Shown here: piece after piece, positions 11,201 through 39,727 of the stretch | Layout: each line of letters begins with the position of its first letter | How positions within the stretch are numbered: the stretch's first letter is position 1 | IMG/VR virus record: IMGVR_UViG_3300027833_000068 | Span: 1 to 52,952 of that record | Length of the DNA stretch: 52,952 nt | Strand: one strand, 5' to 3' | Source: a virus | Program-made: the position numbers and the translations under genes | Notes under the pieces: model-generated | What the model saw: only the letters and a program-made list of their open reading frames with translations | Told to the model about the DNA's origin: nothing | Database searches by the model: none

Positions 11201-14200
11201 CCAATAATATCACCTCTAACAAACGGATGAGCTTTATTAAATGTAAACAAGCCTCCCGGTCCTTCAGTGCCATCTATTGTATCTCGTCCTGCAGCAAATG
11301 ATGATATTGCTGTTACTCGCAGGTCAGTAGTAACATGCTGAAGTACGTCCCAGTTACTATTTTCTCCTGTTACCCAAACATAATCATCTGCACCTATAAC
11401 AGATATATCAGCTGTAAGTATGTCTGACTTATCATTAATTCTGTAACTAATATCTTGATCAAATACAAATCCAGCGTCTTTTACAAACGATGTGTAATCA
11501 GTAATTGTTGGAAACGGTTTATGATCGTAGTTTTGTGGCTTTAAATATACTTCTTCAGGAGTTAATTTGTAAATAGTATCGGTATCATTGGCTGGTATAC
11601 TAGATACTAATTCAATTGGTTGCGGATTAGTTTTAATTTTTGACTCGTCAAGTAAAAACTCTACATTATCAAAATTTTCAGTTGCGCCATATTGACCTAC
11701 TCTTAACGCCCATTCTTCGTAAAATTCTAAACTTTCTTTGTCAGCACTCGCAAGTGCATCAAATAAATTAATTAAAGAATTTGATGTTCCTTTATCTTGT
11801 AACATACCTTGATAAAACTTATATTGTGAAACTTCATCATTAATAATGTTTTCAAGATATTTTCTTTTCTGGTAACCAATTAAATGTTGTGCATGTTTCT
11901 GTTGCTCTAGATCAAAGTTGTCTGTATCTAAATCATAAAAGTCTGCAAACTGATTTATTTTGTATTCAAAGTTTGGTATTAGTTTTGCTTCTGGACGTTC
12001 GTCTAAACGTTGCCATTGGTTGTCAATAAAGAATTCTGTCCCAGTAACATCTATTATTGCAACATAATAAAATTCTTTGTGTTTTACTAGCTTTCCTATT
12101 CCGTAATCTTTATAAGGCGTCCAATCTCTTACTTCAGCTTCGTCATAAACAAATCCAGGAATATTTAATCCGCCACTCCAATTATCACTTCTATAACCAG
12201 TAACTTTAATTCTCTCTTGTCTGTAACCTGCTTCTTGGTCGTAAATTACATCTCCAAAAACTGTTTTATTATCTAATAATATAACATGTTCTCTTTGTAC
12301 TAACGGAAGTTTTACACTGTAAATGCCGTCTGCTGAATTTTTAACAGTTAGCCCAAACTGGTTTTCACTGTCTCTAGCAATACTACTAAAGCTCTTATCT
12401 AATTTTTGACCATCTGCTTTTAATAAACTATAATCATAAAAATTATCAAAGATATTATCAACTACAACATATGGACGGGTAAAGTTAAATTGTTGTGCGC
12501 CTGGACTAAGTGTAATAACTGTGCCTGCTGCCCAATTCTGTGTGGTCCAGAACATAAATTCTTTTACACTGTAAGTCCAATCTTCAACTACACTAATATC
12601 TTTATTGTAGTATTCAAATACAAAACCTTGCTGTTTTAAATACGCTTCATAGCCCAATAAAAAGTCAACTACGTCTTGTGTTGTTCTTAGTAATGTACCG
12701 TATGATATAGTCTTAACTCTGTTTGTAAACTGTCGTCTAAGTACATTTGACCTGCCTCCAACTAACGGAAGCTCTGCCAATTTAGACATTTTAGTAGTAT
12801 CAAAAGATTGTCCACTTACATGACTGTCGCTTACTCTATAGTAAAAGCTATCAAATCTTACATTTTGGCCTTTAACATATTGTTTGCCTGAATCCCAATT
12901 AACAAATGTTTCTGATATTCCGCCAATATTAATTACAGGATCCCTTTGACTTGCAATAGGCTCGTAGTATTTAAATGTTGATAATGCCTGATCGTAACCC
13001 TTTACTACATACCCATTTGTATTTTTTTGTATAACAACACCGCTGTAAGTTGCGATATCAACTGGTGACGAAGTATTAAGAAATAACTTATAATTTTCTG
13101 TAGGTACAAAAACATTACCTTGATTTAATGGGGTTCTGCTATCTAATATTAATTTAAACTTACTCTTATCTGTAAAGCCGCCTACTTTTAATGCTAGTCT
13201 GTTAGACAATGATGTTAATTCTGTTTGATATTCATTATAGTTTGTATTAATATCACTTACAATATAATTGTATATAAAGTTTACGAGTCCACTAGTTATA
13301 ACTCTTTGATTATCAGTATATGTATTAGGAAATAATAAATCTTTTAATCTAATAATAGCATTAGTAGGTTTGTAAACAAGGTTGCCTACTTTATTTCTTT
13401 CAATCCTTGATAAATCAAACGCTGTGCCCATTACTTTTGCAGGTTGATTTAATAACCATGAAGTAATTAATGCAAACGGATATTCACTACTTTTTCTCCA
13501 AGCACTCTCAGCAGGAGTATGGTCTCCAAATGCATAAGGATCTCTTGTCTTAACAGCAATAAAGTTTTGTGCATAGTTGCTGTCTAACGGACTTAATAAA
13601 TTACCATTTTCGTCTACCGGTATATGATTAACTAAATTTGGTCTTTTGTATTTCTTAACTACTTTTGCAGGAACACCAGGTTCTCTTACAATACCATTTT
13701 GTAAATCTTCCCAAAGTACAAAGTTATTTCTAGTATACGGAGCTGCACCGTATTCTGTTTCCCACCATGTTGGCTTAATACTAAATCCTAACATTTCCCA
13801 AGGATGACTGTGAGGACGATCAGTATCGTATGCGTTTATATATACGCCTCTCCAAAATCCAGGTAACGTATTACCTTGTGGAGATGACATATTTTTATAG
13901 TTGTATCTAAATGTATCAGTGTCTTTCCAAAAACTATTAGAAGTATAATCAGGATCGCCTGCAATAACACTCCACTGTACAAAATCCGAAACCATTGCAT
14001 TATTAATATCAATATTATTAAACCCTGTATCTCTAAAGTTGCCGCCTTGGAAATCAGTGATGTCAAAAATGTCTGTGTTGTACTTTTGTTTTAAATTATT
14101 ATATATTCTTCTTTCAAAATCTAATATTAAGTTATCTCTAAAATCCCCGTAAGCAAACGTAATGCTTCCGTCATGACCTTGAATAACAGTCTTTGGTGTT

Positions 14201-17200
14201 TGGTATGTTGTATCTAAAAATATTTCAGGTTTATATGCTGGATACAATCCTAACTTAGTCGGTGTAGTAGGAACAAAGCAAGCATCAGTTGTATCGTATT
14301 CGTATATTTCTACTTCATCGCCAACAGCTAATGTTGCTGAAATATTTACAAAGCCTTCTATAGTAAAAACATAATCTGTTCCATGACATAGTAACTGATC
14401 GTTAAGGTATACTAATACACCATTTGGCGACAAAGTGTCAAGTGTAAAAACTTTTGACAATGCAAAAAATGTACCAGTACTTGCTGTTACTGAATGTAGT
14501 GTTCTTTTAGATGCACCATGCGGCAACATATCTGAGAAGTAAAACGACATGCCTTCAGTTTTTTGGCTGTTTATTTCTTCTAATACTTTATCAACATGTT
14601 CTTTGGTAGGACCATCATATCCTAGATTTTCTGCAACTTGTAAAAATACTCTTTTATATTTTGCGTACTCTATTCTAGCATATTTTAATGCTTTTACAAT
14701 GTTTGCATTTTTATCTGTTAAGTGGTAACTAGCTAATGCTATTGGACCACTATGTTTTACAAATCGTGTTCCGTACTTGCTCGTGTTACCAATATCTCTT
14801 AGATTGCTTACTCCGGGAAATGTATTTCCGTCATACTCAAATGTATTTTCAATAATTGTGCTAACATGATCGTTAACTTCAGCTATTGTAAAATCGCCTA
14901 TGTTTTCGTTCATAGGATTGCGTTCTAAGTTATATGCTAATTCATAATAACCGTTTTCGTTTTTAGTTGTAGCACTGTAGCATCTTAATACTACTACATC
15001 GTCTTCTGTAAGATCATTATTAAATCTTACATATGCAATGCTATTAATTCTGTTAATTTCGTAGTGTGTTGTTTCTTGTTTGAAAGAATTATTTACATAA
15101 ACTTTTACAACTAAATCATTTAGGTCGCCGCTTGCATCAAAAACGTCAACAGCAAAATCATTTGTTGTAGTATCTACAACGTACTGTCTTATTATTGCTT
15201 GACTACTTAATGCATGTGCTTTAGTCCAGCCATTTTCACTAACGTAAGTATTAAGGCCAGTATATTTTCTTAAATATCCTGTTTCAACTTTAACATTTAT
15301 ATTTTCGTTATTTTCTTCGTATACAAATGAATCAGTAACTAGTGGAAAATTAAATTGTATATCGCCAAAGTTTTCAATTGCCCTGTACGATAATGGAAAT
15401 CCTAGCTCTGAATCATTAGTGCCAGTGCCTTGTTTGTAACCAAATAATTGTGTTCCACTAAACGTAGAAGCATTGTAAGTAGTAAAACTATCATCGTTAT
15501 TATCAAATACATCAAATAACGGTTGCTGATTTACTTTAATTTTGTCTTGTGCAGCTTTCCACATAGATCCGTTAAAGTAAAATAAATTACCTTTATAAGT
15601 TGTTCCGCCTTTAACTAATAGTGTTTCATTTACTAACGGAGTCGAATCAGTATCTTCAATTAAACTAATTTGTCTAATATTATCAATTAGAATAAAGTTA
15701 ACTGTGTAAATTTTACCTACTACATTTCTATCTGTATCTGCATTGAAAACTATACGCATACCTTCAGCAACATTTGTGCCGTCAATATTATATCCTGTAG
15801 CATTTTCTACTGTACTAAATGCATCTTTAGTTTTAAAATCAATTAGATCAACATCATTTTTAGCCTTAGTACCAAAGTTAAATAATTTTAAGCCTGCATT
15901 AAATTCAATAATAGGTCTTGATGCTCTAGCACTTTGATCTACTGTAGGCACTTGTCCATTATATTCTGCAGATTTTTCAATTACATCTTTATGGAACCAT
16001 TTGTTGTAACGTGACCAAGCGTTTCTATCAACACTTGCTCTATTAACTATAATGTAATCTTTAGTTCCTGCAAAGGCACTTGCATTACCAAATGGCAATC
16101 TATCAAACCCTTCACTATCAAACGGAACTAATTTATCTCCAACATAACTAGCAGGAATAACTAAGTCACTTTCCTTAACTAGTTTAATGTCGCTACCGAC
16201 ACCTTCAATAAACCATTCGTCATTTTTATAAATTTCAGGTGTAACATTTCCAGCAAACTTAACTTTTAGTCCGTTACTAAATTTAACTTTATTAGAACTT
16301 GTATAAGTTTTCTTTCCAATAATATCGGTGACATCAATTTCAGTGTTTTCAATTATGTCAAATACTTTAATATAGCCACTAGTGTTAACGTCACTTTGGC
16401 TTGAATAATATAATTGCTCTGGTGCATTAAATGGAACTGTGAATGTAATAAAGCCTTCTTCAACATTTACAGGATTAATTTCATTGCCGTTTAAGTCTGT
16501 TGCTGTTATGCCTTGTACATATAAACTAGATATATTTTCTGCACTTCCAGTTGATACAATATTATAACTGCCATCTGCTTGTTTAACTACATCAAATGGT
16601 GCATCAGTAAATCGTCTATCTGTAGAGAACGAAAATGGATGTCCTAGTGTGTTAATTTCAAATGTATAAGTTTGACCTCTATATAAAGTCAATGCCGGAT
16701 TAGGTGTAAACCCTGGTGGTGAAAATTTGTAAACAACATTGTCGTCTTGGTCTTCTGTTGTTACAGTATATGTACTAACTTCTTCTAAACTTTTTCCAAA
16801 AACTGTTACAGTTTGAGGACCGTTTGGCAACCAATAATACTCACGGAAATTTGTAAACTTATCCCAATCAATGTTTGGATTCCAAGCATAATATTCTTGG
16901 CTATTTAATTTACTCTGATTTGCAACACTTCCAGCAAAATTGTTAACTTGATTAACATAGTCAGGATAATCAGCAAAGAAGTTTACATTACCTAAATCAT
17001 CAACAGAAACTGTTGCTGGTTCTAACTGCCTGTTTTCTCTTTGTTCAGTAACATCAGCAATGTATGTGTCGTCGGCCCTAAATGCTTTTGCATTTTTTCG
17101 TCCCATATAGCCACTAACTTTTTCTGCTGTGCCAGGTTGTACTAACTGATCTATTGTACTAGAAAGTATTTTCTTATTTGCTTGTGTTCTAAAATATTTA

Positions 17201-17280
17201 GGAAGTAAGTCAACACTCTTTCTATTAGAGTTGTCGCCTGCTGGCAACGGTGAATCTGTCTGATCGTTATCGTAAGACAT
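2245..17280 (-). CDS. Giant baseplate/tail structural protein in the gp7 position (5011 aa)
   Basis: One uninterrupted 15-kb frame, over a quarter of the window. It directly follows gp6 with a TAATG overlap, where T4 carries gp7 (1032 aa), so a baseplate-wedge role is likely by position; I see no sequence proof of gp7 homology. Visible parts: an N-terminal segment (about 1-170) rich in Asp/Asn/Tyr; several W/Y-rich modules of the form Y-x(4)-G/D-x-V-x-Y/F-x(4-5)-Y near residues 1470, 1730, 2235 and 2905 that resemble carbohydrate-binding modules; FG-GAP-like beta-propeller blades (FGDHSANNNKGLVYTY, WGSSIDLSEDGDTLVIADP, FGEQVLINDNHVYVGVPGD) near 2150-2210 and 2960-3170; paired Gly-rich motifs (NGGSNYTYPPTVTIAGGGGT, NTGTGYTSAPTVTITG) near 3600-3655 and 3965-4020; and beta-sandwich fibre-like repeats to the C-terminus. 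No signal peptide or membrane segment is seen. It probably combines wedge and receptor-binding roles. Confidence 0.8.
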   Translation of the reverse strand: MSYDNDQTDSPLPAGDNSNRKSVDLLPKYFRTQANKKILSSTIDQLVQPGTAEKVSGYMGRKNAKAFRADDTYIADVTEQRENRQLEPATVSVDDLGNVNFFADYPDYVNQVNNFAGSVANQSKLNSQEYYAWNPNIDWDKFTNFREYYWLPNGPQTVTVFGKSLEEVSTYTVTTEDQDDNVVYKFSPPGFTPNPALTLYRGQTYTFEINTLGHPFSFSTDRRFTDAPFDVVKQADGSYNIVSTGSAENISSLYVQGITATDLNGNEINPVNVEEGFITFTVPFNAPEQLYYSSQSDVNTSGYIKVFDIIENTEIDVTDIIGKKTYTSSNKVKFSNGLKVKFAGNVTPEIYKNDEWFIEGVGSDIKLVKESDLVIPASYVGDKLVPFDSEGFDRLPFGNASAFAGTKDYIIVNRASVDRNAWSRYNKWFHKDVIEKSAEYNGQVPTVDQSARASRPIIEFNAGLKLFNFGTKAKNDVDLIDFKTKDAFSTVENATGYNIDGTNVAEGMRIVFNADTDRNVVGKIYTVNFILIDNIRQISLIEDTDSTPLVNETLLVKGGTTYKGNLFYFNGSMWKAAQDKIKVNQQPLFDVFDNNDDSFTTYNASTFSGTQLFGYKQGTGTNDSELGFPLSYRAIENFGDIQFNFPLVTDSFVYEENNENINVKVETGYLRKYTGLNTYVSENGWTKAHALSSQAIIRQYVVDTTTNDFAVDVFDASGDLNDLVVKVYVNNSFKQETTHYEINRINSIAYVRFNNDLTEDDVVVLRCYSATTKNENGYYELAYNLERNPMNENIGDFTIAEVNDHVSTIIENTFEYDGNTFPGVSNLRDIGNTSKYGTRFVKHSGPIALASYHLTDKNANIVKALKYARIEYAKYKRVFLQVAENLGYDGPTKEHVDKVLEEINSQKTEGMSFYFSDMLPHGASKRTLHSVTASTGTFFALSKVFTLDTLSPNGVLVYLNDQLLCHGTDYVFTIEGFVNISATLAVGDEVEIYEYDTTDACFVPTTPTKLGLYPAYKPEIFLDTTYQTPKTVIQGHDGSITFAYGDFRDNLILDFERRIYNNLKQKYNTDIFDITDFQGGNFRDTGFNNIDINNAMVSDFVQWSVIAGDPDYTSNSFWKDTDTFRYNYKNMSSPQGNTLPGFWRGVYINAYDTDRPHSHPWEMLGFSIKPTWWETEYGAAPYTRNNFVLWEDLQNGIVREPGVPAKVVKKYKRPNLVNHIPVDENGNLLSPLDSNYAQNFIAVKTRDPYAFGDHTPAESAWRKSSEYPFALITSWLLNQPAKVMGTAFDLSRIERNKVGNLVYKPTNAIIRLKDLLFPNTYTDNQRVITSGLVNFIYNYIVSDINTNYNEYQTELTSLSNRLALKVGGFTDKSKFKLILDSRTPLNQGNVFVPTENYKLFLNTSSPVDIATYSGVVIQKNTNGYVVKGYDQALSTFKYYEPIASQRDPVINIGGISETFVNWDSGKQYVKGQNVRFDSFYYRVSDSHVSGQSFDTTKMSKLAELPLVGGRSNVLRRQFTNRVKTISYGTLLRTTQDVVDFLLGYEAYLKQQGFVFEYYNKDISVVEDWTYSVKEFMFWTTQNWAAGTVITLSPGAQQFNFTRPYVVVDNIFDNFYDYSLLKADGQKLDKSFSSIARDSENQFGLTVKNSADGIYSVKLPLVQREHVILLDNKTVFGDVIYDQEAGYRQERIKVTGYRSDNWSGGLNIPGFVYDEAEVRDWTPYKDYGIGKLVKHKEFYYVAIIDVTGTEFFIDNQWQRLDERPEAKLIPNFEYKINQFADFYDLDTDNFDLEQQKHAQHLIGYQKRKYLENIINDEVSQYKFYQGMLQDKGTSNSLINLFDALASADKESLEFYEEWALRVGQYGATENFDNVEFLLDESKIKTNPQPIELVSSIPANDTDTIYKLTPEEVYLKPQNYDHKPFPTITDYTSFVKDAGFVFDQDISYRINDKSDILTADISVIGADDYVWVTGENSNWDVLQHVTTDLRVTAISSFAAGRDTIDGTEGPGGLFTFNKAHPFVRGDIIGVQSTSASNDAFYSVESVFANSIEVLSGQNQTIETLEETDGFVSVLRSVKYDTIKEANAILENKVLKNQKIWVGDTGNWIVPIKNSVYTEKTHYNNPSDYDNTSTYEFGSSMTSNSSNTKLAFGDHSANNNKGLVYTYQRGSNLRELLYEATLELDTSVYPVSDDHRFGTDIDISADGKYLIVGSSTASDVASNYKSNYATSIEYSENDIVKYDENYWKAVRTITPESGSIAFSTFDSYANLERASDSSLLTLVLQGNPYLPNTSTDHLLIAAPFDQYRGTKPQDKLVLNWNSFTNFNRNTGSSNSVELFPQGINAQNTASQYTEPNANFIEGEHLIIEKIDSVLLVEPFTDPPQDGDIIETASGSATIYKAFQRDFKLVLYIKDTNGIFGPSGTINNSNGTLIGNYTQPNYNGTTNAIGGWWYINMPATQTYLTSDEFTNPSDYGIPAYGLVYQDILVYDEVNDSYARTTPNFYNNILDDVNSTIFPTRDEPGFASVLSHRGAAYTNVDNDGVQNILDNRWLLRIPPSLAGQINQPNDKFRAYIDDQAVPADFDLLGIDASYINDNEHTVIDMWEGYIDFTFTKTQGADVVMLSDQDIDTGDFFEPAYIGKVFTDINGVIVNINGADGDFIRDEITGARARVAYYIRRATDQGRVYLKDVTGTFVQGNRMLLETKEGVAELDNLRIMGPINKISVTGNNTGKIAVMQKGTTFPAHPESYGGLDQFRDLNSFAYVNKEFWIYKENLTEAGTDAPASIPSTSNSDWQLVYNLPVTTAGSQVSKPANQGVYSIFNRIGSTWVNRGTFEIPNSSTNSNVGQQVAVSQENDLYRFYIGSKENLTVIKHGTDKYGKQYNYAFDINPHYRGEYNVDATYKTDEIVLYSNQLYSALTFVKGVTPTSTLKWRILNSQVNYLPTLPNAVNIFNDPAFDDLGESVTDFTKQITVSDNGQVLAISIVTDVSVDADNKVLVYRILDDRYVIDQTIVAPVSNTGWGSSIDLSEDGDTLVIADPESDIDGYNTGKVYVYAKSNSTFEMHQVLSGTGTQSEKFGNKVSISKDIIAVTSGNGDVATDTLFDGAITTFDDTFTSFPDKKIDSGSVRLYQKVKDAFILAEELDYDGDLTVLSASRFGEQVLINDNHVYVGVPGDPNDYYTEDTNPGSFVDYQVNRGTKPWTTLRSPNEIVDIKKIKSAFLYNTKTNSLVEYLDYIDPIQGKIAGPAEQELTFKSNIDLARYNVTTLPDYFSETSNWEEKYVGKLWWDLSTTRFYNPYQQDIVNQANVWSKLIPNYSVDVYEWVESTIPPDKWDSLADTSEGYAKGISGTSKYGNNAYSQKLAYDTLSQTFSDKYYFWVKNKKTIPAGDPTRSISGFEAEGLIGNPRGQGYSFLALLSNDRFVLYNSERLLKDKDVALHVSYYTQDTQEQNSHLEYHIVTEGLETSVPKADIERKWIDSLIGYDTRGRPVPNPELSLREKYGTLNSPRQSWFVNRQEAFKQVIERANITLKENIIVDDFSFSTLNSADVQPFVTNRTYDYKIDTLDELDFIGINKIQTAILRASIHGGTVTDIRIINSGRGYSDPTYDITTSTVRHGPSFELFGNGSGLDFNLEINNLGQISKVNIINGGSGYDENLRIEVRPLTVLVENDSTVNNKWATYEYNKNSNVWNRILSQSYDTTEYWDYVDWYAPNYTQFTRIDHRVDESYQLASTNAKLGQIVKIDNIGNGGWLLLKRTAETNSTDYTIDYDTIGRENGTIEINSKLYNVIENTVGYDLLGYDNRFFDTEPVTEARQIMTALKNDIFVDNLAVKWQELFFASIRYVLSEQQNVDWVYKTSFVKAKHNVGDLTQKINYQNDNLESYNDYINEVKPYKTNVREYLSSYENVDNTKTQTSDFDVPPYYDFTQNGIKTKSVKITDNSLVGVDSFFDDYPYKNWSENYGFKVIAVNIYNGGSNYTYPPTVTIAGGGGTGATAKAYLGAGKVVNIVVTNTGTGYTSAPTVTITGSQADGSTTAIASAQIGETVVRSMHVEMKFDRVSGEYVIIELPETETFTGTAINDKFALKWPMNLRRNKVKITLNGQILLRSEYTFTNIEDNTYTYKRYKGQVQLTTTPPLGSIIVVEYEKQSTILNAQDRINHLYNPTTGMLGKELSQLMTGIDYGGVEVKSFGFEGTSGWMTDEYGADTWDSYDNEFQDEIFFADGTTVAIELDNPLEDGIQYNVYLKRSGQTKAIRIDDPNYGNNPANTLAKMQTLTGDGVTQTINLAENDIEVSDGDIVTIRKITSDGSFKPDPDSYDTLLTGGQLDYGNAAGVNADDIILDGDLFVTPLNAGGPEELVNGQVMDSVNITVFERTGEGQGQIYNQNYITDGTTTEYPLGLLPNSNDAVIVKLGNTIIDASLYTVDYKTLTLAFKVAPVTDQILTILTVGVNGQNIIDIGTIISVADENVYQTNILWDDNYQIFLRKDGNTPDGLELIARKDNVNGFIEFVFSPQPPVVGTRLDYEIYSNSDQINYSKIQKDNIIADGSSVTYNLSTSAIYETPAEFFTIVEVDGIVKKPGYSKIFKITDPTLREYELETFQVQESTLSAADTEVYLNGNLLNQQDSYAVNIGQSSIILENNILSENDILSVYFRNADYRVVGNQVTFNSAPIEDQEINVYTFSNHDIVDINRISYDVINRSTLTPGTDNYSAYHSLTGGRIELNSPASGVENVWIFQNGRMLAPSVDYKLESNMKVIQLVTVPAENDIIDIIHFTAPISTPTIAWQQFKDILNRTHYKRVDNNDGIKLSQPLNYDDLRVVVVEGADRLPTPDKRSNKPGVIWLDGERIEYFAKTGNDLRQLRRGTLGTGVKDTYPTNTPVYGGGIDKNIPYRDETIVWSPVDAVTEGQTDFTLDFTPNSVNEFEVFAAGTRLNKAAIVKFNPAIAIDSPEGDVNTPAEFTVSGNVLTLTNPMSANQKLVVIRKIGKLWTTPGTPLKDAQNDIGSFLRGAQSELPE

Positions 17281-23682: not shown

Positions 23683-26600
23683 TTAAATTGCTGTTGTGCC
23701 AGGATTGAATTGCTGAGTTTCTGGTTCTACTGTTACGTCTCGTGCTGTTGCTGTATTTACTTCATCTCCGAACTCGTTATAAGTAACCCCGGACGATAAT
23801 TGTGTTACTGGTCTACTTGTTTCTACACCCTGAGCTGTGTAAAATGCAGATATTGCTTTTACCTTGTCACCTAGTTGTATATTGTATAGATTGTCAGTTG
23901 GGTCTGTAGGAAAGTATGGTCGTATACTTGATTCGCCACGTACACTATTTTGAAATGCACTTTCGTATCCTGCATATTGGGTCGTTGTCATTGAACGTGT
24001 GCCACTAACTCTGTACCCGTCATCTAGTGCTGCTGTTTTTTGTTTAGGATCTTTTGTGTCAGCGCCGTCTGGTCTTGTTGGTCCAACAAATGGCGTTCCT
24101 CCAGGAATTAATCCGTTTGCCGGCCATTCAAACGAGCCTTGTTCAGCTTTTGCTGCACAAAAATGCATAGCATCTGTTGAACTGTTCCAGTTACCGCCCC
24201 ATCCTAGTCCATACTTCTCACCTAGTGCTACCATAACTGATCCGGTTCCGTCTTCCGGCATGTCTGTAAAATCATCTGTAACTCTTCCGGTTTTCTTAAT
24301 TTTTCTAAAAGGATTTTCTGCTGGGTTAATATCAATTGCAAGTCCACTAGCATGATAGCTAGGTCTTGATCCGCCTTCTATAGCTCTTTGCGCATACCCG
24401 CCTAATGATTTTATTTCGTAATTGTATTCTGTTTCTAATTCGTCAATTAATCCTTGGAAGTTTTTTGCAAACATTGCAGCAACCTGTGTTGTTTTTCCTG
24501 TTGATGTTCTAATTGTTGCCAACGGCCCATTAGTTCCTGTTGGAGGCACTACACCAATGTCTTGATTAGTAGTATCTTCTGAATAATCTGAACCAGGTTC
24601 TCCAGCAGGCCCTATGTCGTTAGGATTAAGACTTTCGCAACCTGGTTTTTCAACAAGTGCTTTAACTTTATTAATGCCTGCTGTACTTTGATTTCTACGT
24701 CTTACTAGTTCTAAAGTTTGTGTAAATTTATTGCCGCTTATTTTTGATTGAACAGTTATTACCTGATATACTCCGCTGAAACTGTCTACAGCAAGAGTGT
24801 CTGCTCCTGAGAAAAACATTGTGCCGTCACTGTTATAATCAACTGGAGTTCTAAAGTTTACAATAATATCTATTTCATTCCTTTGGTGATCAACGCCGCC
24901 GCCAGCTGTTATATTTTTTGTGCCGCCTCGAGGTGCTGTATAATTTCCAATTCCGCTATCTGGTAAAAAGTAAGGATCTCCCCAAATTTCTAGTTCTGCT
25001 GTGATTAAATCAACAGGACTGTTTATTAGAGCATTATGGAACATCTTAGCAAGCTCTTCGCCGTACTGTTTATTATAACTACCACCATTAAAATTGCCAG
25101 GCTTCATAACAGACCTTGATTTACCTTCTGGTATAACATTACCGTCTGTTGGTTTTCCTGTTACAGGAGTTTGTGGTGTAATCGTAGTTTTTTCTCTATC
25201 ATTAACTACAGCTGATGCGTTTAGTTGGCCCATATCCATTTGTATTGCTTGGTAAAATGCTGCATCGAATTTAATATCAAAGCCTAACACATCTTCATTT
25301 TTTCCAGAGTAAATATAGTTGTATGTTTTTACACAATGTTTTGCTTTTTCAATTAAGCCAGGCCCTGCTTGGTTAGGCGCACTAAATCTACTTGCATCTA
25401 CTTTATAAGGAACTACATCATACACATAAATTTTTGCTGGTTCACCATTTGCACTTTCATATGCTTGGTCACTTATAATATAACACTGTGACTCAATTCT
25501 AAACCAACTAAGTTCACCTTTTTGGTCTGCTCTTTGTAGTGCTGTTCTACCATACTCACTTACAATTACAAGTTCTTCAATTATCTTAGTAATCGGTGTT
25601 CCTTGATCAAACTTAAATGTTCTATTTTTATCGCTAATAGTAAGTTCTACACCATTACGTTTGTAAATATTTGTTTCTTTATCATATGCATACAATCCTA
25701 ATCCAAAAGGATTGTCGCCACCTTCTTTATAATCGGATATCATTTTACTGGCACCGATAGCATTTAAATCAGTAATGCCGGATGCTTTGAGCGTTTGAAG
25801 TAATGAACTATTAGTAGCGTCTACGCCAACACTGTTAAAGAATGATGTTAATCCATCTTCTTCAGGTACGTCTGCTGTTTGGCTTCCTTTGCGAGATGCC
25901 CTTGCTTCTGAATCTGTCTGGGTTGCTTTATTAGTATCCGGGGGTGCTAACATTGACTTCGTTATTGGAGGTGTACGCTTTGTAGGAAATCTAATAAGAT
26001 AATAGTTAGTTGCCGGTTGACAAGTTTTTTTAGCAATTTCTTCTAGCTTAGAATTAATTATAGTTGATAATCCTTGTTCTCCTACTGAAAGTACATCAAG
26101 CAATGATTCACCTGTAAGACTTACAGGATCTGTTATTTTTTGTACCTCTTCATCAAAGGATTGTTCGTTCCAAGGTATACATTCTACTTGATAAGTGCTT
26201 CCTCCACTTTCTACACTAAATTCAATATTAATTAATTTAAACGGAAATGATCTTTTGCTGTATGCAGCTGGCCTGCCGCCCGCGTCGTCAAATCCTACAA
26301 AGTCAAGTTCTAACAAATACGGTGCTTGTAAATAGTTTTCAAATCCTGCATCAAAAGCAGCACCCTGCAATGCTTGTAAAAATATTCCCATTGAGTAAGG
26401 TTCTTTTACTGAGAAACTAAAATTAATTGCTTGAGTAGCGCCTGTTCTACTATTGGCTGCTAAAATAGCAGTCATATCAAAGTCATCTATGAAGTATTCT
26501 AAATTGCCCTTTTCTTCACCGGCACTATCATATGCTGTTTGTATACGCTTGTCGTCGATGCCGCCGCCGCCACTGTTTAATATAGTAAAGTCTGCACCGT

Positions 26601-27237
26601 TTTTAAGATATGTGTCAACAGGATTATTTGCACTATCTGCCGTTAACACTCCTAAAGAAAAAATGGCGTTAACACTATTAAATAATCTAAGTGGATTTTT
26701 AATTGTTATTCCCGGACCTTTAGGTTCCTTTTCGGGTTCGCTGTTTGATCCTTTTTGCGAACCAGGGTGACCATCTAATATCTTTTCTATATCTGTAAGT
26801 ACGGATTGAAATTCAGCGTCAACAAGGCTATCAAGTTTATCACTTACAGCTGCGTTAAGATCGACATCAGTCATAACGCTGTTAGCTAAAGGAATTACTT
26901 GTTGTATAAGACTATCTGCTTTGCTTTGTAAACTTGCGCCGAAGCCATTTGCAAGGGCATTTAGACTTGGTGGATATATTGAACTTGGAGACGGATCTAC
27001 ATTTACTAACTGTGGTATACTTCTACCTAAAGATGCAACTTTTTGTCCTAGACCTTGAATATCAGTTTTAGAAAAAGGATTTTCAAGAACACTTAATGCA
27101 CCCGATGCATCATATACATTTGTTGCTATGTTTTTTATATCGCCAAACTGTGCCGAAGCATCAAAATTATCTAATCCTAAGTTGCTAGTAAGAGTTTTTG
27201 CTTTGTTTTCAATAATAGCTTTTGGATTAATGCTCAT
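23683..27237 (-). CDS. Baseplate hub protein with C-terminal M15-type peptidase domain
   Basis: This 1184-residue protein lies between gp53 and gp5, where a gp27-like hub would be expected. Two internal regions look like hub domains: about 245-370 (INFSFSVKEPYSMGIFLQAL ... LINIEFSVESGGSTYQVECI) and about 745-850 (ELEIWGDPYFLP, FSGVYQVITVQSKISG, FTQTLELVRRR), the last resembling gp27/VgrG-type hubs. The C-terminal part (about 915-1040) matches M15/VanY-like peptidoglycan peptidases: SYHASGLAIDINP with candidate zinc ligands His962 and Asp969, and STDAMHF with His1025. Such domains cleave peptide cross-links or stems. The start ATG follows the gp53 stop with no gap (TAAATG), so it is coupled. 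Equivalence to gp27 is inference; the peptidase motif is directly visible. Confidence 0.8.
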   Translation of the reverse strand: MSINPKAIIENKAKTLTSNLGLDNFDASAQFGDIKNIATNVYDASGALSVLENPFSKTDIQGLGQKVASLGRSIPQLVNVDPSPSSIYPPSLNALANGFGASLQSKADSLIQQVIPLANSVMTDVDLNAAVSDKLDSLVDAEFQSVLTDIEKILDGHPGSQKGSNSEPEKEPKGPGITIKNPLRLFNSVNAIFSLGVLTADSANNPVDTYLKNGADFTILNSGGGGIDDKRIQTAYDSAGEEKGNLEYFIDDFDMTAILAANSRTGATQAINFSFSVKEPYSMGIFLQALQGAAFDAGFENYLQAPYLLELDFVGFDDAGGRPAAYSKRSFPFKLINIEFSVESGGSTYQVECIPWNEQSFDEEVQKITDPVSLTGESLLDVLSVGEQGLSTIINSKLEEIAKKTCQPATNYYLIRFPTKRTPPITKSMLAPPDTNKATQTDSEARASRKGSQTADVPEEDGLTSFFNSVGVDATNSSLLQTLKASGITDLNAIGASKMISDYKEGGDNPFGLGLYAYDKETNIYKRNGVELTISDKNRTFKFDQGTPITKIIEELVIVSEYGRTALQRADQKGELSWFRIESQCYIISDQAYESANGEPAKIYVYDVVPYKVDASRFSAPNQAGPGLIEKAKHCVKTYNYIYSGKNEDVLGFDIKFDAAFYQAIQMDMGQLNASAVVNDREKTTITPQTPVTGKPTDGNVIPEGKSRSVMKPGNFNGGSYNKQYGEELAKMFHNALINSPVDLITAELEIWGDPYFLPDSGIGNYTAPRGGTKNITAGGGVDHQRNEIDIIVNFRTPVDYNSDGTMFFSGADTLAVDSFSGVYQVITVQSKISGNKFTQTLELVRRRNQSTAGINKVKALVEKPGCESLNPNDIGPAGEPGSDYSEDTTNQDIGVVPPTGTNGPLATIRTSTGKTTQVAAMFAKNFQGLIDELETEYNYEIKSLGGYAQRAIEGGSRPSYHASGLAIDINPAENPFRKIKKTGRVTDDFTDMPEDGTGSVMVALGEKYGLGWGGNWNSSTDAMHFCAAKAEQGSFEWPANGLIPGGTPFVGPTRPDGADTKDPKQKTAALDDGYRVSGTRSMTTTQYAGYESAFQNSVRGESSIRPYFPTDPTDNLYNIQLGDKVKAISAFYTAQGVETSRPVTQLSSGVTYNEFGDEVNTATARDVTVEPETQQFNPGTTAI

Positions 27238-32406: not shown

Positions 32407-32437
32407 CCATGCAAGAAGGAAATAATTACTTGCATGG
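32407..32437 (+). promoter_or_regulatory. RNA hairpin sequestering the start of the GIY-YIG gene
   Basis: CCATGCAAG (32407-32415) and CTTGCATGG (32429-32437) form a perfect 9-bp stem. The 13-nt loop contains AAGGA, the only good ribosome site, while the start ATG (32434-32436) lies inside the 3' arm. Folded mRNA should block initiation or force an unusual start. Confidence 0.75.
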
Positions 32438-32883
32438 AGTGGACGTACAAAGGCAAAAAACTTAAAGAAATACCAGACGAGTACGAAGGCTTCGTTTATT
32501 TAATAACGAACAAAAAGACTGGTCAAAAATACGTAGGCAAAAAACTAGCAAAATTTAAGACCACAAAGCCACCACTCAAAGGCAGAAAAAACAAACGCAG
32601 AGGATACAAAGAGTCAGACTGGAAAACTTACTATGGTAGTTCAGACAGACTTAATGCAGATGTTGCAACACTAGGCGAAAAGCACTTCACAAGAGAAATA
32701 CTATACCTATGTAAAGGTAGGGGCGAAATGTCCTACATAGAGGCAAGAGAGCAGTTTGACAGGCGAGTACTTGAAACAGATGATTACTATAATGGAATCA
32801 TTAATGTTAGAGTAGGCGGATCAGATAAACTCAAACAGGCATTACTAGAACACCACATCAAGGCAAAACAAACCAACACATAA
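32434..32883 (+). CDS. GIY-YIG family endonuclease, probable homing nuclease
   Basis: The 149-residue protein has the two catalytic strands of the GIY-YIG fold near the N-terminus: GFVYLI (19-24) and QKYVGKK (31-37), then a basic region (GRKNKRRGYKESDW) and the motif TYYGSSDRLN. A later EAREQFDRRVLE helix supplies a candidate catalytic Glu. Similar small nucleases in T4-like phages are free-standing homing enzymes (Seg type) or repair-like nucleases. No separate DNA-binding domain is obvious beyond Lys/Arg clusters. It follows the early gp47-gp46 operon after a 34-nt gap with the hairpin. The AAGGA-to-ATG spacing is 13 nt, longer than optimal, unless folding changes the geometry. Confidence 0.75.
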   Translation: MEWTYKGKKLKEIPDEYEGFVYLITNKKTGQKYVGKKLAKFKTTKPPLKGRKNKRRGYKESDWKTYYGSSDRLNADVATLGEKHFTREILYLCKGRGEMSYIEAREQFDRRVLETDDYYNGIINVRVGGSDKLKQALLEHHIKAKQTNT

Positions 32884-33406: not shown

Positions 33407-34147
33407 ATGAAAATAAATGATATTCTAATAGAAGCAAAAGCTGATCCTGATGTAGTAAAAAGATTTGCAGGAGTTGCTGATAGCCAACGTTCATATTACA
33501 TACACCATTGGGCAAAAGAAAAAGGCATAGACACTGATGATGCTATGCACATGGCAGGCTATGTACAAAATGGTTACTTAGGTGCTGGTGCTTGGAACTG
33601 GCGTTATGTAGGTATGGAGGAAAGTTTAGCAACCGAAGCTCCTGTAGGAATGTTAAAAAGAGCTGGACAGGCCGTAGGTGCTAAAGCACTTGGAGCAATT
33701 GGCATGAAGGGCAAAGCAGGCAACTTAGCAGGCAAAGCAGATCTTAGTGCTACAGCAAATACCTTATACAATCAATTTAGACAGTACCTTGGAACACAAG
33801 AACTAGATATAAAAAATGCAACAGGAGCATCTTTAGTTGCGTTTTTAAAATCTAAGCGTGTTAAGAAAATTGGTGCTGTTCCTAAAGGTCCACTAACTAA
33901 GCAAGTTATGGACACAGCATTTATGCAAGCCGCAAAAGAAGCAATGAATACACAGCAAGGCGTAAAAGGACCAGTTGCTAGTCCTGCTCCTAAGAAAGCT
34001 GTTGCTAAAAAAGTTCCAGTTGGATCTAGTGGTTATGTAAAGACTAAGGATGCTGCACTTCAACTCAATGCAAAAGAGAAAAGAAGATTAATTCAACAGA
34101 TTGAAAAAAGTATTAAAGTTAGTCCGGCTAAGAAACCTACTGTTTAA
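33407..34147 (+). CDS. Unknown late protein with basic Ala/Lys-rich tail (246 aa)
   Basis: I do not recognise the family. It begins MKINDILIEA, an opening seen in many phage virion-associated proteins. Residues about 15-75 form a compact W/Y-rich unit (SYYIHHWAKEKGI, DAMHMAGYVQNGYLG, AWNWRYVGMEE). A Gly/Ala/Lys-rich stretch (about 80-110) follows, then a helical unit (TLYNQFRQYLG, GASLVAFLKSKRVKK, about 115-170) and a basic Pro/Ala/Lys-rich C-terminus. It has its own late promoter box and an AAGG ribosome site about 10 nt upstream, so late expression is likely. Its stop overlaps the end of the convergent gp26 extension frame by four bases. A DNA-contacting or packaged protein is possible from the charge; not shown. 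Confidence 0.65.
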   Translation: MKINDILIEAKADPDVVKRFAGVADSQRSYYIHHWAKEKGIDTDDAMHMAGYVQNGYLGAGAWNWRYVGMEESLATEAPVGMLKRAGQAVGAKALGAIGMKGKAGNLAGKADLSATANTLYNQFRQYLGTQELDIKNATGASLVAFLKSKRVKKIGAVPKGPLTKQVMDTAFMQAAKEAMNTQQGVKGPVASPAPKKAVAKKVPVGSSGYVKTKDAALQLNAKEKRRLIQQIEKSIKVSPAKKPTV

Positions 34148-34374
34148 AAATAAGGTAAACCGGACTTTTTAGTTGTTTCTAAATTTTCTTTGATAATATC
34201 AGAAATAATATCTCTATCTTCAGGCGGAAGTTCAAACGCCTCATTCATAGTTAACGATCCGCGCATATGCCATGCAAGTTTAAAAAGATTGTAACGCATT
34301 TGCTTAACTTCGTCATCTAGGACCTTAACTTCGTTAAGGATTTGTTGTACTGGTAGTGCTAAGATCCTGATGCG
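34144..34374 (-). CDS. Frameshift extension of gp26 (C-terminal part of a 359-aa fusion)
   Basis: This frame lies -1 to gp26. It opens just after an in-frame TGA six codons upstream of the slip site, passes the gp26 stop and ends at TAA 34146-34144. It has no ATG, GTG or TTG before an internal ATG some 26 codons in, yet the residues before that ATG look coding (LPVQQILNEVKVLDDEVKQM). The core is a compact helical domain, RYNLFKLAWHMRGSLTMNEA then FELPPEDRDIISDII and TTKKSGLPYF. The 'L-AWHMRG-LT-EA--L---R' character resembles C-terminal extensions of tail-assembly chaperones. Expression by -1 slippage at TTTTTTC would add 76 codons after gp26 residue 283. Separate initiation at the internal ATG (51 aa) is the alternative. 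Confidence 0.65.
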   Translation of the reverse strand, partial: RIRILALPVQQILNEVKVLDDEVKQMRYNLFKLAWHMRGSLTMNEAFELPPEDRDIISDIIKENLETTKKSGLPYF

Positions 34375-35222
34375 AAAAAACTTGATTGATCAAATGTTAC
34401 AGGAACTTCATAAGTTTCTGGCACACCTGCTTCTATTTCTTCCGGAGTAGCATCTACTACTAGCGGCTTAACTTGAAACTTAGTTCTTTGTTCTTCAATA
34501 TGATTAGTAACACTTTCAAAAAGCCCTTGGTCTGTATTTGCAATAAACTCTTTGATATGGGCTTGGTCAGTAACAACATCATCGCCAACCTCAATTGATG
34601 CAATTGACTTTTCAAGGGTTAGTATAGTAAGGTCTGTTAGTTTTTTAAAACTTTCAGTAAACGTTGCTAACTTATCGCCTTCGGCCATATCAGTATCATT
34701 AATTACGTTAAATATTCTTTGTTCGTCAAATGTCTTTCTACTTGTTTCAGTAAACTCTCCGTAGGTTAACGGTCTTAGATTTACAATCATGCCATCTAAC
34801 TGAATAGCACTGTTGTAATCTACATTTGAAAACTGATCTAACATTATTCTTAGGTCTAAGTCAAAGTCTTTATCTTCACCAGTAACTGGTACTTTAATAC
34901 TAACTTCCATCATTTCGCCGTATGTTGCTATGCGAATAGCAATCAAACATGCATCAAGATCCATAGAAGGCATATTAAATGGATCTTTAATTGCCGGTAT
35001 ACAGCTGGTAATAACACTAGCTGTTGCTTGCCCGTTCAATAAAGCGTCCGGTGTTTTGATCATTATTTCGTCTCTAGCCGTCATAGGAAATACTGGATAC
35101 TCTCCGTTTTCTGATATTTCCAAACTTCCGGCAGGGTAATATTTTCCGTTACTTGGTAATGACAAATATATCTTAGGTTGTCTAAAATATTTCTGTAACG
35201 GATTAGTGTTTTTGTTTTCCAT
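34359..35222 (-). CDS. gp26: Baseplate hub assembly protein gp26 (tail-assembly chaperone candidate)
   Basis: This 287-residue protein matches the T4 baseplate protein (gp26-type) family as found in marine T4-like phages: QPKIYLSLPSNGKYYPAGSL (about 14-33), EYPVFPMTARDEIMIKTPDA, LLNGQATASVITSCIPAIKD and ACLIAIRIATYGEMMEVSI. The C-terminal half is helical. In T4, gp26 is required for hub assembly. AGGAG lies 5 nt before the ATG, and a perfect TATAAATA late box lies about 45 nt upstream. It stands alone on the minus strand between two plus-strand blocks, back to back with a tape-measure-like gene. The end of the gene carries a TTTTTTC slip site four codons before the stop, giving a short and a long product. 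Confidence 0.82.
   Translation of the reverse strand: MENKNTNPLQKYFRQPKIYLSLPSNGKYYPAGSLEISENGEYPVFPMTARDEIMIKTPDALLNGQATASVITSCIPAIKDPFNMPSMDLDACLIAIRIATYGEMMEVSIKVPVTGEDKDFDLDLRIMLDQFSNVDYNSAIQLDGMIVNLRPLTYGEFTETSRKTFDEQRIFNVINDTDMAEGDKLATFTESFKKLTDLTILTLEKSIASIEVGDDVVTDQAHIKEFIANTDQGLFESVTNHIEEQRTKFQVKPLVVDATPEEIEAGVPETYEVPVTFDQSSFFASGS
34374..34380 (-). promoter_or_regulatory. -1 programmed frameshift slip site TTTTTTC in gp26
   Basis: In the gp26 frame the heptamer reads T TTT TTC, the X XXY YYZ form needed for tandem -1 slippage. The gp26 stop TAG lies 15 nt downstream. A 7-bp hairpin (CCTTAAC/GTTAAGG, 34323-34339) begins 34 nt after the slip site; this is further than usual for a stimulator. 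Confidence 0.7.
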
Positions 35223-35234
35223 TTTTTCTCCTGG

Positions 35235-35301: not shown

Positions 35302-37950
35302 ATGGCTGATGAAATTAAAATTGAAAACATAGGCGGTGAAAACGGCGTAGCAAGTGAAGTTACACTTGTTAGACTAGTTAATGCTATGGAAAAAATGGCC
35401 AAGACTTCGGGGGCCGATCCTAAGTCACAAGCAGCCAAAACACAACAAGCATATAACAAAGCTCAACAGTCTGGTGTTAAAGTTTCAACTAAACATAGAG
35501 ATGCTGTTAAAGACAATACTAGCGCGGTACAATCAAACACCAAATATTTAAACCTAGCAGCCGGCGGCCTGATGAGATTAGCCGCAGGCGGAATTGGGTC
35601 TGCTATCGGAAGTCTTAAAGGGTTTGCTGAAGAACTAATATCCGGTGGTGACAGCTTAACAAGTTTTGTACAACACATACCTATATTTGGTGGTGCGTTA
35701 TCCATGCTTACAGGAGTTATGGATAGGAGTTATGTTTCATTCCAATCAATGGCCAAATCAGGCGGCGACCTCGGCTACGATTTAGAAAGTTTAAGAACAA
35801 CAGCAGCTGAATCAAGATTAAGCATTGAAGAATTTAGTTCATTCGTAGCTCAAAGTTCTACTATGTTAGCAGCGTTTGGCGGAACAGTTAGTATTGGTGC
35901 TAAACAAGTTGCCGGCATGACAGATGCTCTAGGCAATGACCTACGAACAGAGTTACAGATGATGGGCTTATCGTTTGAAGAGATTAACGAATCAATGGCT
36001 ATGAGTGCTTACCTAAACAGAACAGGAAGCAAGATGGAAGCACGAGATAAACAAGTACAAGCAGAAGCTGCCGCTGGTTTAACAAAGAATATGCTACAAC
36101 TTGCAAAATTAACAGGCGAAGATGTAAAAGCACAACAAGATAAACTTGCACAAGCTTCAATGGACTTAGCATTCCAAAGGGAACTAGGAAAACTTGAAGG
36201 CGATGAGAAAAAGAATATGCTTTTAGCAATGGCAGAAGCACAAGCTACAGGCGGTGAAGTTGCTGTTAATGCACTAAAAGCACAATTTTTAGGAATGCCA
36301 CCAATAACAAGAGAATTGCAATTATTTACAGCAACAATGCCAGAAAGTGCAGCTCTTATAAAAAAATTACTCAATGACGCTGTTAACTCAGGTATGGCTC
36401 ATGACACATTCCAGAAAGGACAAGAAAAAAGAGTTGTTGACTATACAGCGTCTTTGATAACCTCATCAAAAAATCTTGACGCTATTATTAGAGTTGGTGC
36501 TATATCAGGCGCAGGAGTTGCTGGTGAAATATCCGCCATGGCCAACACAACTATGGATAGAATTCTACCGTATATTGAATCTGGCGGGGAAGATATTGAA
36601 GCAGCTAAAAAGGCAATTGCTAAAAACTACAAAGAAATTTTACCACTACCGCCGAAAGACGGTGAACTAGGTGCAATGGCACAATTTTTAGAAACAGTTA
36701 AAGACGCAAAACTAGCGATTGTTACAAATTTAATTAACCCGCTCGTAGGCGCAGCTGTTGAAGTGTTTGGGCCAGTGACTGGATGGTTTAAAGGATTTGT
36801 TGGTGAAAAAGGCGAAGCAACTACTTTTCAAACAACGTTGGCAGGGTTCAGCAAGTATATAAAAGAAACAGTTAATCCTGCACTTAAAGCCTTTTTCGAA
36901 GCATTTGGAAAAGATCCCAAGAAAGCATTGAAAGAAGCAATGTTTGGTGACGGCAAAGACAAAAAAGGTCTTCTCAAAACAATTATGGAACCAGTAGGAG
37001 AAGCTCTAGTAGCAGGATTTAAAACCGGCCTTGCAGCATTGTTTGAGAATATTGATGTTAGAACGGCATTGATAGCAGGAATTGCTGGATTATTTGCAGC
37101 AAAAGCGGTTGTGGCTGCAATGGCGGCAGGTGCAGCATCGTTAGCTGCATTAGCAATGCCAAAAACATCACCTACGGGAGCACCAATTGCCGACGGCGGT
37201 AAGCCTAAGGGTAAAATGAACTTATCCAAACAGGCTTTAAAAAGACTAGGGCCTCTAGCACTATTGTTTGGAGCATACGAAGTTGGCTCAACAGCAATGA
37301 ACACTGACTTAACACAAGGTCAAAAAAAGGAAGAATATGGCGCAATTGGCGGCGGAATGGCAGGCGCAGCCGCAGGAGCCTTAGCTGGCTCATTTATTCC
37401 TTTTATTGGTACAGCAATAGGTGGACTACTTGGCGGTACACTAGGATATTTTGGCGGTAGTGCTGCAGGTAGAGCGATAATGAAGGACGATGGCACTGTT
37501 AGTACTGACACACCGTCGGCAACAGACAAAGATGTAGCAGAAACACTTGGCGTAACACCAGATACTGTAAAATTATTAGAAAGAATGTCCGGAATTGGCG
37601 GAGGAATGGAAAGAGTTGCTAGTGCGTTTGAAAGAATTGACAAATTAGAAAGATTTAGCGAAAATGTAAATGCAATACAAAAAGGACTTGACATATCAGA
37701 GCTTTCCAAGTATAATAATAATATGCAAGAAATAGCAAGGTCATTAGAAGATATGAATAAAGCCTTAGCAGAAGATAATAAAGGTTTATTTGGCGGCACA
37801 GGCGTAGCATCAGCTGATCTACTTAAAAAGATGGGCGGATCAGGTCCTAGTACAGAACTAATAAATTCAATAAATAAGAACATGAGCGATATGAATATTC
37901 ATCTAAAAGCAATTGTAAGATCAAATAAAACAATCGCAGGCGAATCTTAG
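35302..37950 (+). CDS. Tape-measure-like tail protein (882 aa)
   Basis: No catalytic motif is visible. The character is that of a tail tape measure: long Ala/Lys/Gln-rich helices (about 10-80, 190-330, 420-470), hydrophobic Gly/Ala segments (NLAAGGLMRLAAGGIGSAIG about 82-101; TALIAGIAGLFAAKAVVAAM about 590-610; a glycine-zipper around 670-735 with AGAAAGALAGSFIPFIGTAI and LGGTLGYFGGSAAG), and a C-terminal coiled region. In T4 the tape measure is gp29 (590 aa); I see no direct sequence match to it. Its neighbour is gp26, transcribed divergently, and gp20 follows. If it is a ruler at about 0.15 nm per residue, the tail would be near 130 nm (inference). The ribosome site is weak (TGGAA, about 11 nt). 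Confidence 0.65.
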   Translation: MADEIKIENIGGENGVASEVTLVRLVNAMEKMAKTSGADPKSQAAKTQQAYNKAQQSGVKVSTKHRDAVKDNTSAVQSNTKYLNLAAGGLMRLAAGGIGSAIGSLKGFAEELISGGDSLTSFVQHIPIFGGALSMLTGVMDRSYVSFQSMAKSGGDLGYDLESLRTTAAESRLSIEEFSSFVAQSSTMLAAFGGTVSIGAKQVAGMTDALGNDLRTELQMMGLSFEEINESMAMSAYLNRTGSKMEARDKQVQAEAAAGLTKNMLQLAKLTGEDVKAQQDKLAQASMDLAFQRELGKLEGDEKKNMLLAMAEAQATGGEVAVNALKAQFLGMPPITRELQLFTATMPESAALIKKLLNDAVNSGMAHDTFQKGQEKRVVDYTASLITSSKNLDAIIRVGAISGAGVAGEISAMANTTMDRILPYIESGGEDIEAAKKAIAKNYKEILPLPPKDGELGAMAQFLETVKDAKLAIVTNLINPLVGAAVEVFGPVTGWFKGFVGEKGEATTFQTTLAGFSKYIKETVNPALKAFFEAFGKDPKKALKEAMFGDGKDKKGLLKTIMEPVGEALVAGFKTGLAALFENIDVRTALIAGIAGLFAAKAVVAAMAAGAASLAALAMPKTSPTGAPIADGGKPKGKMNLSKQALKRLGPLALLFGAYEVGSTAMNTDLTQGQKKEEYGAIGGGMAGAAAGALAGSFIPFIGTAIGGLLGGTLGYFGGSAAGRAIMKDDGTVSTDTPSATDKDVAETLGVTPDTVKLLERMSGIGGGMERVASAFERIDKLERFSENVNAIQKGLDISELSKYNNNMQEIARSLEDMNKALAEDNKGLFGGTGVASADLLKKMGGSGPSTELINSINKNMSDMNIHLKAIVRSNKTIAGES

Positions 37951-37978: not shown

Positions 37979-39727
37979 ATGAGCTGGAAAAAATATTTTA
38001 CACCAGTACCAACGGGTACTAACGCAGAAGGCAGCTATAGTCCCTTCAGCGGCTATAATGGTGGTATGCAACCAGGTCCTGCAACAAAAAATTATAACTC
38101 ACACTTACCAGATGTGTATGTTGGTAGTCCAAATCGTGTTGAGCGTTACGGTCAATACAATACAATGGACAGCGATTCGGAAGTTAATGCGGCACTAGAC
38201 ATACTTGCTGAGTTTTGCACACAAAAGAATGAACAAAACGGTACTAACTTTACTTTAGAGTTCAAACAAAAAGCAACAAACTCCGAAACAACTATTTTAG
38301 CAAAGTATCTACAGCAATGGTGTAAACTTAACAAGTTCGAAACACGTATGTTTAGGCTAATACGTAATGCATTTAAGTACGGAGATCAAATTTTTGTTAG
38401 AGATCCAGAAACTAAAAAGTTATACCATGTAGATACAGCAAACCTAACAAAAATTATTGTTAACGAATCAGAAGGCAAGACTCCTGAGCAATATATCATC
38501 AAAGATTTTAATTTAAACTTTGGTGAAATGGTAGCAACTACTCCGCATCAGACAAATGGTCAAACAAATAATGGTGGCGCAGGCAGTTATCAAAGTGCAA
38601 GTGCTGGTAAAGGCTTTATAGGAAGTCAGCAAGGTAGCCAAGCAGGCACACGTTGGAGTAGAGAAGAGTCGGAAATAGCAGTTGATGCTGATCATATTGT
38701 ACACCTTAGTATGAGTGAAGGCTTAGACAACAACTATCCATTTGGTAATTCGTTATTAGAAACAATTTTTAAAGTATACAAGCAAAAAGAACTATTAGAA
38801 GACGCAATCATTATATACAGAGTACAACGTGCTCCTGAAAGACGTGTTTTTTATGTTGATGTTGGTAACATGCCAAGTCACCTTGCTATGCAATTCGTAG
38901 AACGTGTTAAAACAGAGATACACCAAAGACGTATTCCAAGCCAATCAGGCGGGGGTACCAATGTTATAGACAGTAGTTACAACCCGTTAAGTATTAATGA
39001 AGACTATTTCTTTCCGCAAACAGCAGAAGGACGTGGTTCTAAAGTAGAAACGTTACCAGGTGGTACAAATTTAGGAGAAATTGATGACCTTAGATATTTT
39101 ACTAATAAGCTCGTACGCGGTTTACGAATTCCTAGCTCATACTTGCCTACAGGGGCTGAAGATGCAAGTAGTCAGTACAATGATGGTAGAGTCGGAACAG
39201 CATATATACAAGAATTAAGGTTCAATACTTACTGTGAACGCTTACAAGGCATGCTTGTTGAAGAATTTGACCAAGAATTTAAGAAATATTTGTTAGAAAA
39301 GGGTGTAAACGTTGATACTTCAATGTTTGACCTAGTTTTCCAGCCTCCACAGAACTTTGCATCGTACAGACAGTCAGAAGTAGACAATGCTCGTGTACCA
39401 ACTTACACACAAATGAGTGCAATACCTTATATTAGTAATAGATTTGCTCTAAAACGCTTCTTAGGCATGACAGATGAAGAAATTGCAGAGAATGAACGTA
39501 TGTGGAGAGAAGAAAATGATGAAAATCTTGAAACTCCAGCAACAGATGCTGCAGGCGAAATGCGCGGTGGTGGCATATCAGGAGCAGGTATGGATGCAGA
39601 CCTAGGCGGAATAGAAGATGAAGATACTTCTGTACCGACAGAAGATGGCGGAGAAGCAACACCGCCAGAAACAACAACAGGAGCCGAACTTGGTGGCGGA
39701 GCAGCAACAACGGACCAAACGGTATAA
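37979..39727 (+). CDS. gp20: Portal vertex protein gp20
   Basis: At 582 residues it is slightly longer than T4 gp20 (524). Clear portal segments are present: DSDSEVNAALDILAEFCTQ (about 62-80), FRLIRNAFKYGDQIFVRDPE, IYRVQRAPERRVFYVDVGNM, YFFPQTAEGRGSKVETLPGG and LRYFTNKLVRGLRIPSSYLP (wing, stem and crown parts). Twelve copies form the DNA-packaging channel and start prohead assembly. The C-terminus (about 515-582) is a Gly/Glu/Thr-rich acidic tail. AGGA lies about 8 nt before the ATG. It follows the tape-measure-like gene after 28 nt with no own promoter box, so it is probably on the same late transcript. Confidence 0.95.
   Translation: MSWKKYFTPVPTGTNAEGSYSPFSGYNGGMQPGPATKNYNSHLPDVYVGSPNRVERYGQYNTMDSDSEVNAALDILAEFCTQKNEQNGTNFTLEFKQKATNSETTILAKYLQQWCKLNKFETRMFRLIRNAFKYGDQIFVRDPETKKLYHVDTANLTKIIVNESEGKTPEQYIIKDFNLNFGEMVATTPHQTNGQTNNGGAGSYQSASAGKGFIGSQQGSQAGTRWSREESEIAVDADHIVHLSMSEGLDNNYPFGNSLLETIFKVYKQKELLEDAIIIYRVQRAPERRVFYVDVGNMPSHLAMQFVERVKTEIHQRRIPSQSGGGTNVIDSSYNPLSINEDYFFPQTAEGRGSKVETLPGGTNLGEIDDLRYFTNKLVRGLRIPSSYLPTGAEDASSQYNDGRVGTAYIQELRFNTYCERLQGMLVEEFDQEFKKYLLEKGVNVDTSMFDLVFQPPQNFASYRQSEVDNARVPTYTQMSAIPYISNRFALKRFLGMTDEEIAENERMWREENDENLETPATDAAGEMRGGGISGAGMDADLGGIEDEDTSVPTEDGGEATPPETTTGAELGGGAATTDQTV

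Follow-up and report, generated by a model that had tools for sequence, protein, structure and literature searches.

The window analysed here is a 52,952-base virus record (IMG/VR record IMGVR_UViG_3300027833_000068), and our subject is a gene of the gp26 family at 34359..35222 on the minus strand, together with the short reading frame that continues past its 3' end. In its 0 frame the gene encodes 287 residues, the putative short form of a tail assembly chaperone (TAC-N), and it is preceded by a Shine-Dalgarno sequence AGGAG at 35228..35232 on the same strand (AGGAGAAAAAATG). Its product belongs to the family PF12322 (T4_baseplate; E 1.6e-11, 44.7 bits against a curated cut-off of 24.5) and also matches the baseplate hub family phrog_150 (E 4.7e-14). 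The AlphaFold2 model of the protein is confident (predicted local distance difference test, pLDDT, 84.4) and finds T4-like baseplate hub assembly proteins in a viral structure library (E 2e-22). A possible late promoter upstream of the gene, TATAAATA at 35274-35267, was discarded, as 5 copies were found where chance would give 8.4.

Read directly, codon by codon, the 3' end of the gene is AGT TTT TTC GCA TCA GGA TCT TAG. It contains the -1 slippery heptamer T TTT TTC (34374..34380, minus), from which the four codons GCA TCA GGA TCT lead to the stop codon TAG at 34361-34359; among the 16,650 codons of the window genes, an in-register TTTTTTC or TTTTTTT occurs this once. Past the slip, the -1 frame (34144..34374, minus) stays open for 76 codons and ends in TAA at 34146-34144, giving a predicted fusion of 283 + 76 = 359 residues, in which the extension would form the C-terminal domain of a long form (TAC-NC). 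This frame is shut by a TGA at 34392-34390, upstream of the slip, and its first ATG stands at 34299, 25 codons past the slip, with no usable start before it. The whole arrangement had been proposed in a preliminary description of this DNA made from its letters alone, and direct reading bears it out. A convergent open reading frame of 246 residues (33407-34147, plus), weakly matched to an Hsp70 family in PHROG, overlaps the stop codon of the extension with its own end.

Base composition alone would produce an open frame of 76 codons with a probability of about 0.004. The extension is under purifying selection: the ratio of nonsynonymous to synonymous substitution rates (dN/dS) has a median of 0.36 and lies below 1 in all of 232 comparable pairs drawn from 80 distinct 76-codon extensions, and the three codon positions, read in the -1 frame, have entropies of 0.99, 0.60 and 1.48. 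AlphaFold2 confidently models the extension as an all-helical domain (pLDDT 90.5), in keeping with the compact, conserved-looking domain suspected from the start; a viral fold search with this model gave no match below E 0.66.

The closest cultured phages found by tblastn are the jumbo phages Atu_ph07, Phosso, PA5oct, 121Q and others akin to them (28-32% identity). The eight of these that were examined all carry TTTTTTC at the same Phe-Phe pair, and their -1 frame stays open for 70-77 codons. Two scans of IMG/VR enlarged the set to 128 loci, 123 of them with a complete gp26 end, and to 89 distinct extension sequences. TTTTTTC is in register at the homologous Phe-Phe in 123/123 complete ends, down to about 28% protein identity; the following base is G in 122 of the 123, and complete extensions span 70-77 codons. 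The remaining 38 Phe-Phe pairs of the same genes are written TTTTTT (20), TTCTTT (13), TTTTTC (3) and TTCTTC (2). TTTTTTC or TTTTTTT was also found in 92 of 93 further P-SSM2-like, HTVC008M-like and 121Q-like viral contigs with a readable end. The sole exception is an HTVC008M-like locus (L226) with a premature stop within gp26, itself a sequencing error or a sign of decay. The same two heptamers, followed here by 56-66 codons of open -1 frame, occur in 11/11 cultured phages of other groups (the cyanophages P-SSM2 and S-SSM5, the pelagiphage HTVC008M, Aeh1, a Vibrio T4-like phage, Cr30, Marzo, Melnitz-2, OLIVR5, ZPAH1 and S13). Alignment of cyanophage and pelagiphage gp26 loci, which the preliminary description had called for, finds both heptamer and frame relation kept. 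The placement of the virus in a marine T4-like lineage is right as to T4-like; its nearest relatives are jumbo phages, not cyanophages or pelagiphages. Comparison across relatives, including the selection and RNA analyses below and above, strongly supports a conserved, programmed -1 frameshift yielding a short and a long gp26 product.

A homopolymer in a metagenomic contig invites the suspicion that a single gene has merely been split at its T run, by a sequencing error or by decay. This explanation, whose probability we regard as negligible, is refuted by comparison: more than 200 independent contigs share the layout, finished phage genomes have it too, and an in-frame fusion is known only as the gp51 paralogue.

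Signals in the RNA accompany the heptamer. The 84 nucleotides past the slip fold more strongly than synonymous-codon shuffles, with a mean z of -2.04 in 89 loci, while a control region gives +0.13. In the window, a predicted stem has its 5' arm at 34358..34368 (minus), beginning 5 nucleotides past the heptamer, and its 3' arm at 34319..34329 (minus), which forms 11 base pairs with 34368-34358. Among 22 sequences with the window's pairing (groups were picked by predicted fold, and member sequences are related), 97.5% of cells are paired and 7 of the 11 pairs have changed on both sides in a compensatory manner; 0/500 shuffles reached this level, and neither did slid controls. A further 38 loci pair the shared 5' arm with a 3' arm lying closer to it, for which support is weaker. 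The 3' arm lies mainly at columns 52-62 or 37-44 from the heptamer, depending on lineage, and in a few cases further downstream. Because it differs between groups, RNAalifold found no structure on 80 loci taken together; once the loci were split by predicted pairing, the structure was recovered. An Rfam search gave no match. P-SSM2-like loci also fold strongly downstream (mean z -2.95), and the Glu codon upstream of their slip is GAG in 71/74 loci as against 24% elsewhere, which creates a GAGG or GGAGG ending 10 nucleotides before the heptamer. Such an upstream element is absent from 88/89 loci of the window's clade. The slip is probably driven by the conserved downstream stem.

The long form might instead arise by slippage of RNA polymerase on the T6 run, which would give a similar protein, and the homopolymeric run it requires does exist. 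However, a run of 6-7 T is short for RNA polymerase slippage. It also never departs from the X XXY YYZ register, and a stem 5 nucleotides downstream, together with a Shine-Dalgarno-like element upstream in another clade, are features of a ribosomal shift. We therefore regard slippage during transcription as very improbable.

A slightly larger, still slim chance goes to the extension being a small gene of its own, as the cyanophage 'gp51' annotation would have it, with a start by reinitiation or coupling close to the stop of gp26. Databases do list the extension as a separate coding sequence, and in some relatives an ATG overlaps or just follows the stop (ATGA in Atu_ph07, Phosso and loci L044-L046) or stands at extension codon 3 (77 P-SSM2-like loci). 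No start codon, however, is consistent across the 123 loci with a complete gp26 end, and an independent start was rejected on this ground. The window and most of its clade lack an ATG for 18-36 codons, yet the sequence is conserved from the slip onward; the heptamer is invariant even in loci that have a start; and the GGAGG of the P-SSM2 group, 10 nucleotides before the heptamer, is too distant to serve the extension ATG as a ribosome site. Comparison across relatives shows the candidate slip site, its frame relation, the selected extension and the predicted RNA stem, and in this way backs the short/long pair of the preliminary description.

We consider it very likely that a programmed -1 slip on T TTT TTC, aided by the RNA stem, gives gp26 a short and a long form that act as tail assembly chaperones for a tape measure client. 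Frameshifting inside the cell and its efficiency are inferred. The majority of ribosomes would end at the TAG and release the 287-residue short form. Some would step back one base on the heptamer, assisted by the stem 5 nucleotides downstream, and would read 76 more codons to make the 359-residue long form with its helical C-terminal domain. By analogy with the lambda G/GT pair, both forms would coat the tape measure protein and present it during polymerisation of the tail tube around it.

The presumed client is probably the divergent gene next door (35302..37950, plus), which encodes 882 residues. Homologues of 702-1172 residues, each a complete reading frame, stand divergently beside gp26 in 89 loci, and those of Phosso, PA5oct and 121Q are recovered by hhalign with E 5e-17 to 4e-11; the annotation of the PA5oct homologue is that of a virion protein detected by mass spectrometry. 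The 882-residue protein has hydrophobic segments and almost no W or C, a tape-measure-like composition, and weak matches to PHROG tape measure families. A T4-like portal gene (gp20; 37979..39727, plus; PF07230, E 1.9e-109) comes next and marks the conserved neighbourhood. In HTVC008M and Cr30, the strand that encodes gp26 carries an annotated tape measure just downstream, with the extension and one further small gene in between.

Several results weigh against this interpretation. A PDB fold search with the gp26 model gave no match (best E 0.49), and comparison of the 882-residue protein with annotated tape measures detected no homology. In Atu_ph07, gp26 adjoins neither the portal nor the 882-residue homologue. 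The extension of the window's clade, compared with gp51-type extensions, is collinear but only weakly matched (hhalign probability 13-20). A tape measure role for the neighbour is plausible: the client named in the preliminary description fits by composition and weak profile matches, and homology to annotated tape measures was not found. It is also conceivable, if improbable, that gp26 is a structural subunit of the hub, that the long form has another role and that the 882-residue gene is not a client. The family is indeed annotated 'baseplate hub subunit', and older T4 genetics put gp26 in the hub (PMC3004832). That review nevertheless lists T4 gp26 and gp51 as hub assembly chaperones, with gp51 absent from the particle, and T4-like genes of this kind have been assigned as tail assembly chaperones (Vladimirov et al., 2022, as cited in PMC10885494 and PMC12846349). 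The chaperone reading put forward at the outset agrees with that published work; the function itself, like the 882-residue client, is suggested by analogy.

T4 casts light on the extension from another side. T4 gp26 has no slip site and is followed by gene 25. Residues 1-201 of T4 gp51 match PF12322 (E 3.9e-52), the same Pfam family as gp26; its first part matches gp26 of cyanophages and Straboviridae (E 2.7e-15), and its last approximately 50 residues match the frameshift extensions of those phages (hhalign probability 97.6, E 4.8e-12). These profile comparisons make T4 gp51 a gp26-like protein with an in-frame C-terminal domain, the one which other phages would add by frameshift, so that both forms exist as separate genes. 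The slip is absent in 4/4 gp51-bearing phages examined (T4, Aeromonas phage 31, phiP4-3 and RB43), and a full-length gp51 was found by tblastn in 1334 phage records. Aeromonas phage 31 and phiP4-3 are arranged like T4. RB43 has tandem overlapping gp51-gp26 paralogues upstream of gp25 (L142:3001-4294), possibly an intermediate between one frameshift gene and the separated T4 pair. According to Sullivan et al. (2010; PMC3037559), cyanophage gp51 lacks about 200 N-terminal residues and is only about 20% as long as its T4 counterpart, and Aeh1 has no gp51. In the cyanophages we examined, it is the frameshift extension that goes by the name of 'gp51', a small gene, and Aeh1 has the extension without an annotated gene; the frameshift accounts for both the short cyanophage gp51 and the 'missing' gp51 of Aeh1. 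We speculate, at about even odds, that dedicated and evolving RNA signals drive the chaperone frameshift of the T4 superfamily: slip and 5' arm would be kept, the 3' arm would move among lineages, Kyanoviridae would add an internal Shine-Dalgarno sequence 10 nucleotides upstream, and Tevenvirinae would have dropped all of these by way of a separate in-frame gp51.

Other genes of the window are worth recording. An open reading frame of 5011 residues (2245-17280, minus) matches phrog_10938, a family of giant virion structural proteins, and contains a head-closure-like (Hc2) match. Between a gp53-like and a tail-lysozyme gene lies one for 1184 residues (23683-27237, minus), a homologue of Atu_ph07 gp698 with endolysin-like matches near residues 906-1083. 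Atu_ph07 gp701 (L239:8510-9127), annotated 'tail length tape measure protein', has only 205 residues and showed no similarity to either the 882-residue family or the 1184-residue protein; it looks misannotated. A 149-residue gene (32434-32883, plus) matches homing-endonuclease families and phrog_447, whose name, 'NAD synthetase', looks doubtful.

Altogether, the encoding of a two-form tail chaperone at one slip site would be general to gp26 throughout the T4-like phages, jumbo phages included, and would supply an annotation rule for hundreds of genomes, namely to join gp26 with its -1 open reading frame. The slip sequence of lambda gpG/gpGT is GGGAAAG, and it differs from the present one, as does the divergent arrangement of gp26 and the presumed tape measure in the window. 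The likeness to lambda, and to the tail chaperone frameshift conserved among dsDNA phages (Xu, Hendrix, Duda 2004), lies in a gene placed near the tape measure, a presumed one in the window. T4 resembles the window in that its gp26 corresponds to the short form and its gp51 to a gp26-like protein with the extension domain, but it uses two genes without a slip site where the window has one slip gene. In the abstract of the 2022 study of T4-like tail assembly chaperones, genes 26 and 51 are reportedly named and frameshifting is said to be conserved in several T4-like groups. As relayed by PMC10885494 and PMC12846349, that study identified these chaperones as a frameshift pair or two genes, depending on the group (Vladimirov, Gautam, Davidson, Virology 2022, 566:9-15); the PRFect paper (PMC10885494) attributes to it T4-like phages with one short and one fused long gene, and PMC12846349 describes poly-T slip signals in T4-like TAC-N genes. 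Frameshifted T4-like chaperones are therefore already published and the core discovery is not new, which settles a point the preliminary description had left undecided. The additions made here are the reach into jumbo phages and the RNA stimulators; we found no description of the frameshift in the 121Q, PA5oct or Atu_ph07 lineages in a partial coverage of the literature. The tail chaperone locus of Vandenendeviridae and Andersonviridae (phage Adele), as presented in PMC12846349, belongs to other phage families. With the chaperones of Vladimirov et al., as these secondary sources present them, the window shares the family gp26/gp51 (PF12322) and the two alternatives of a frameshift pair or separate genes, and it extends them to lineages of jumbo phages and of environmental viruses, in which a stem covaries.
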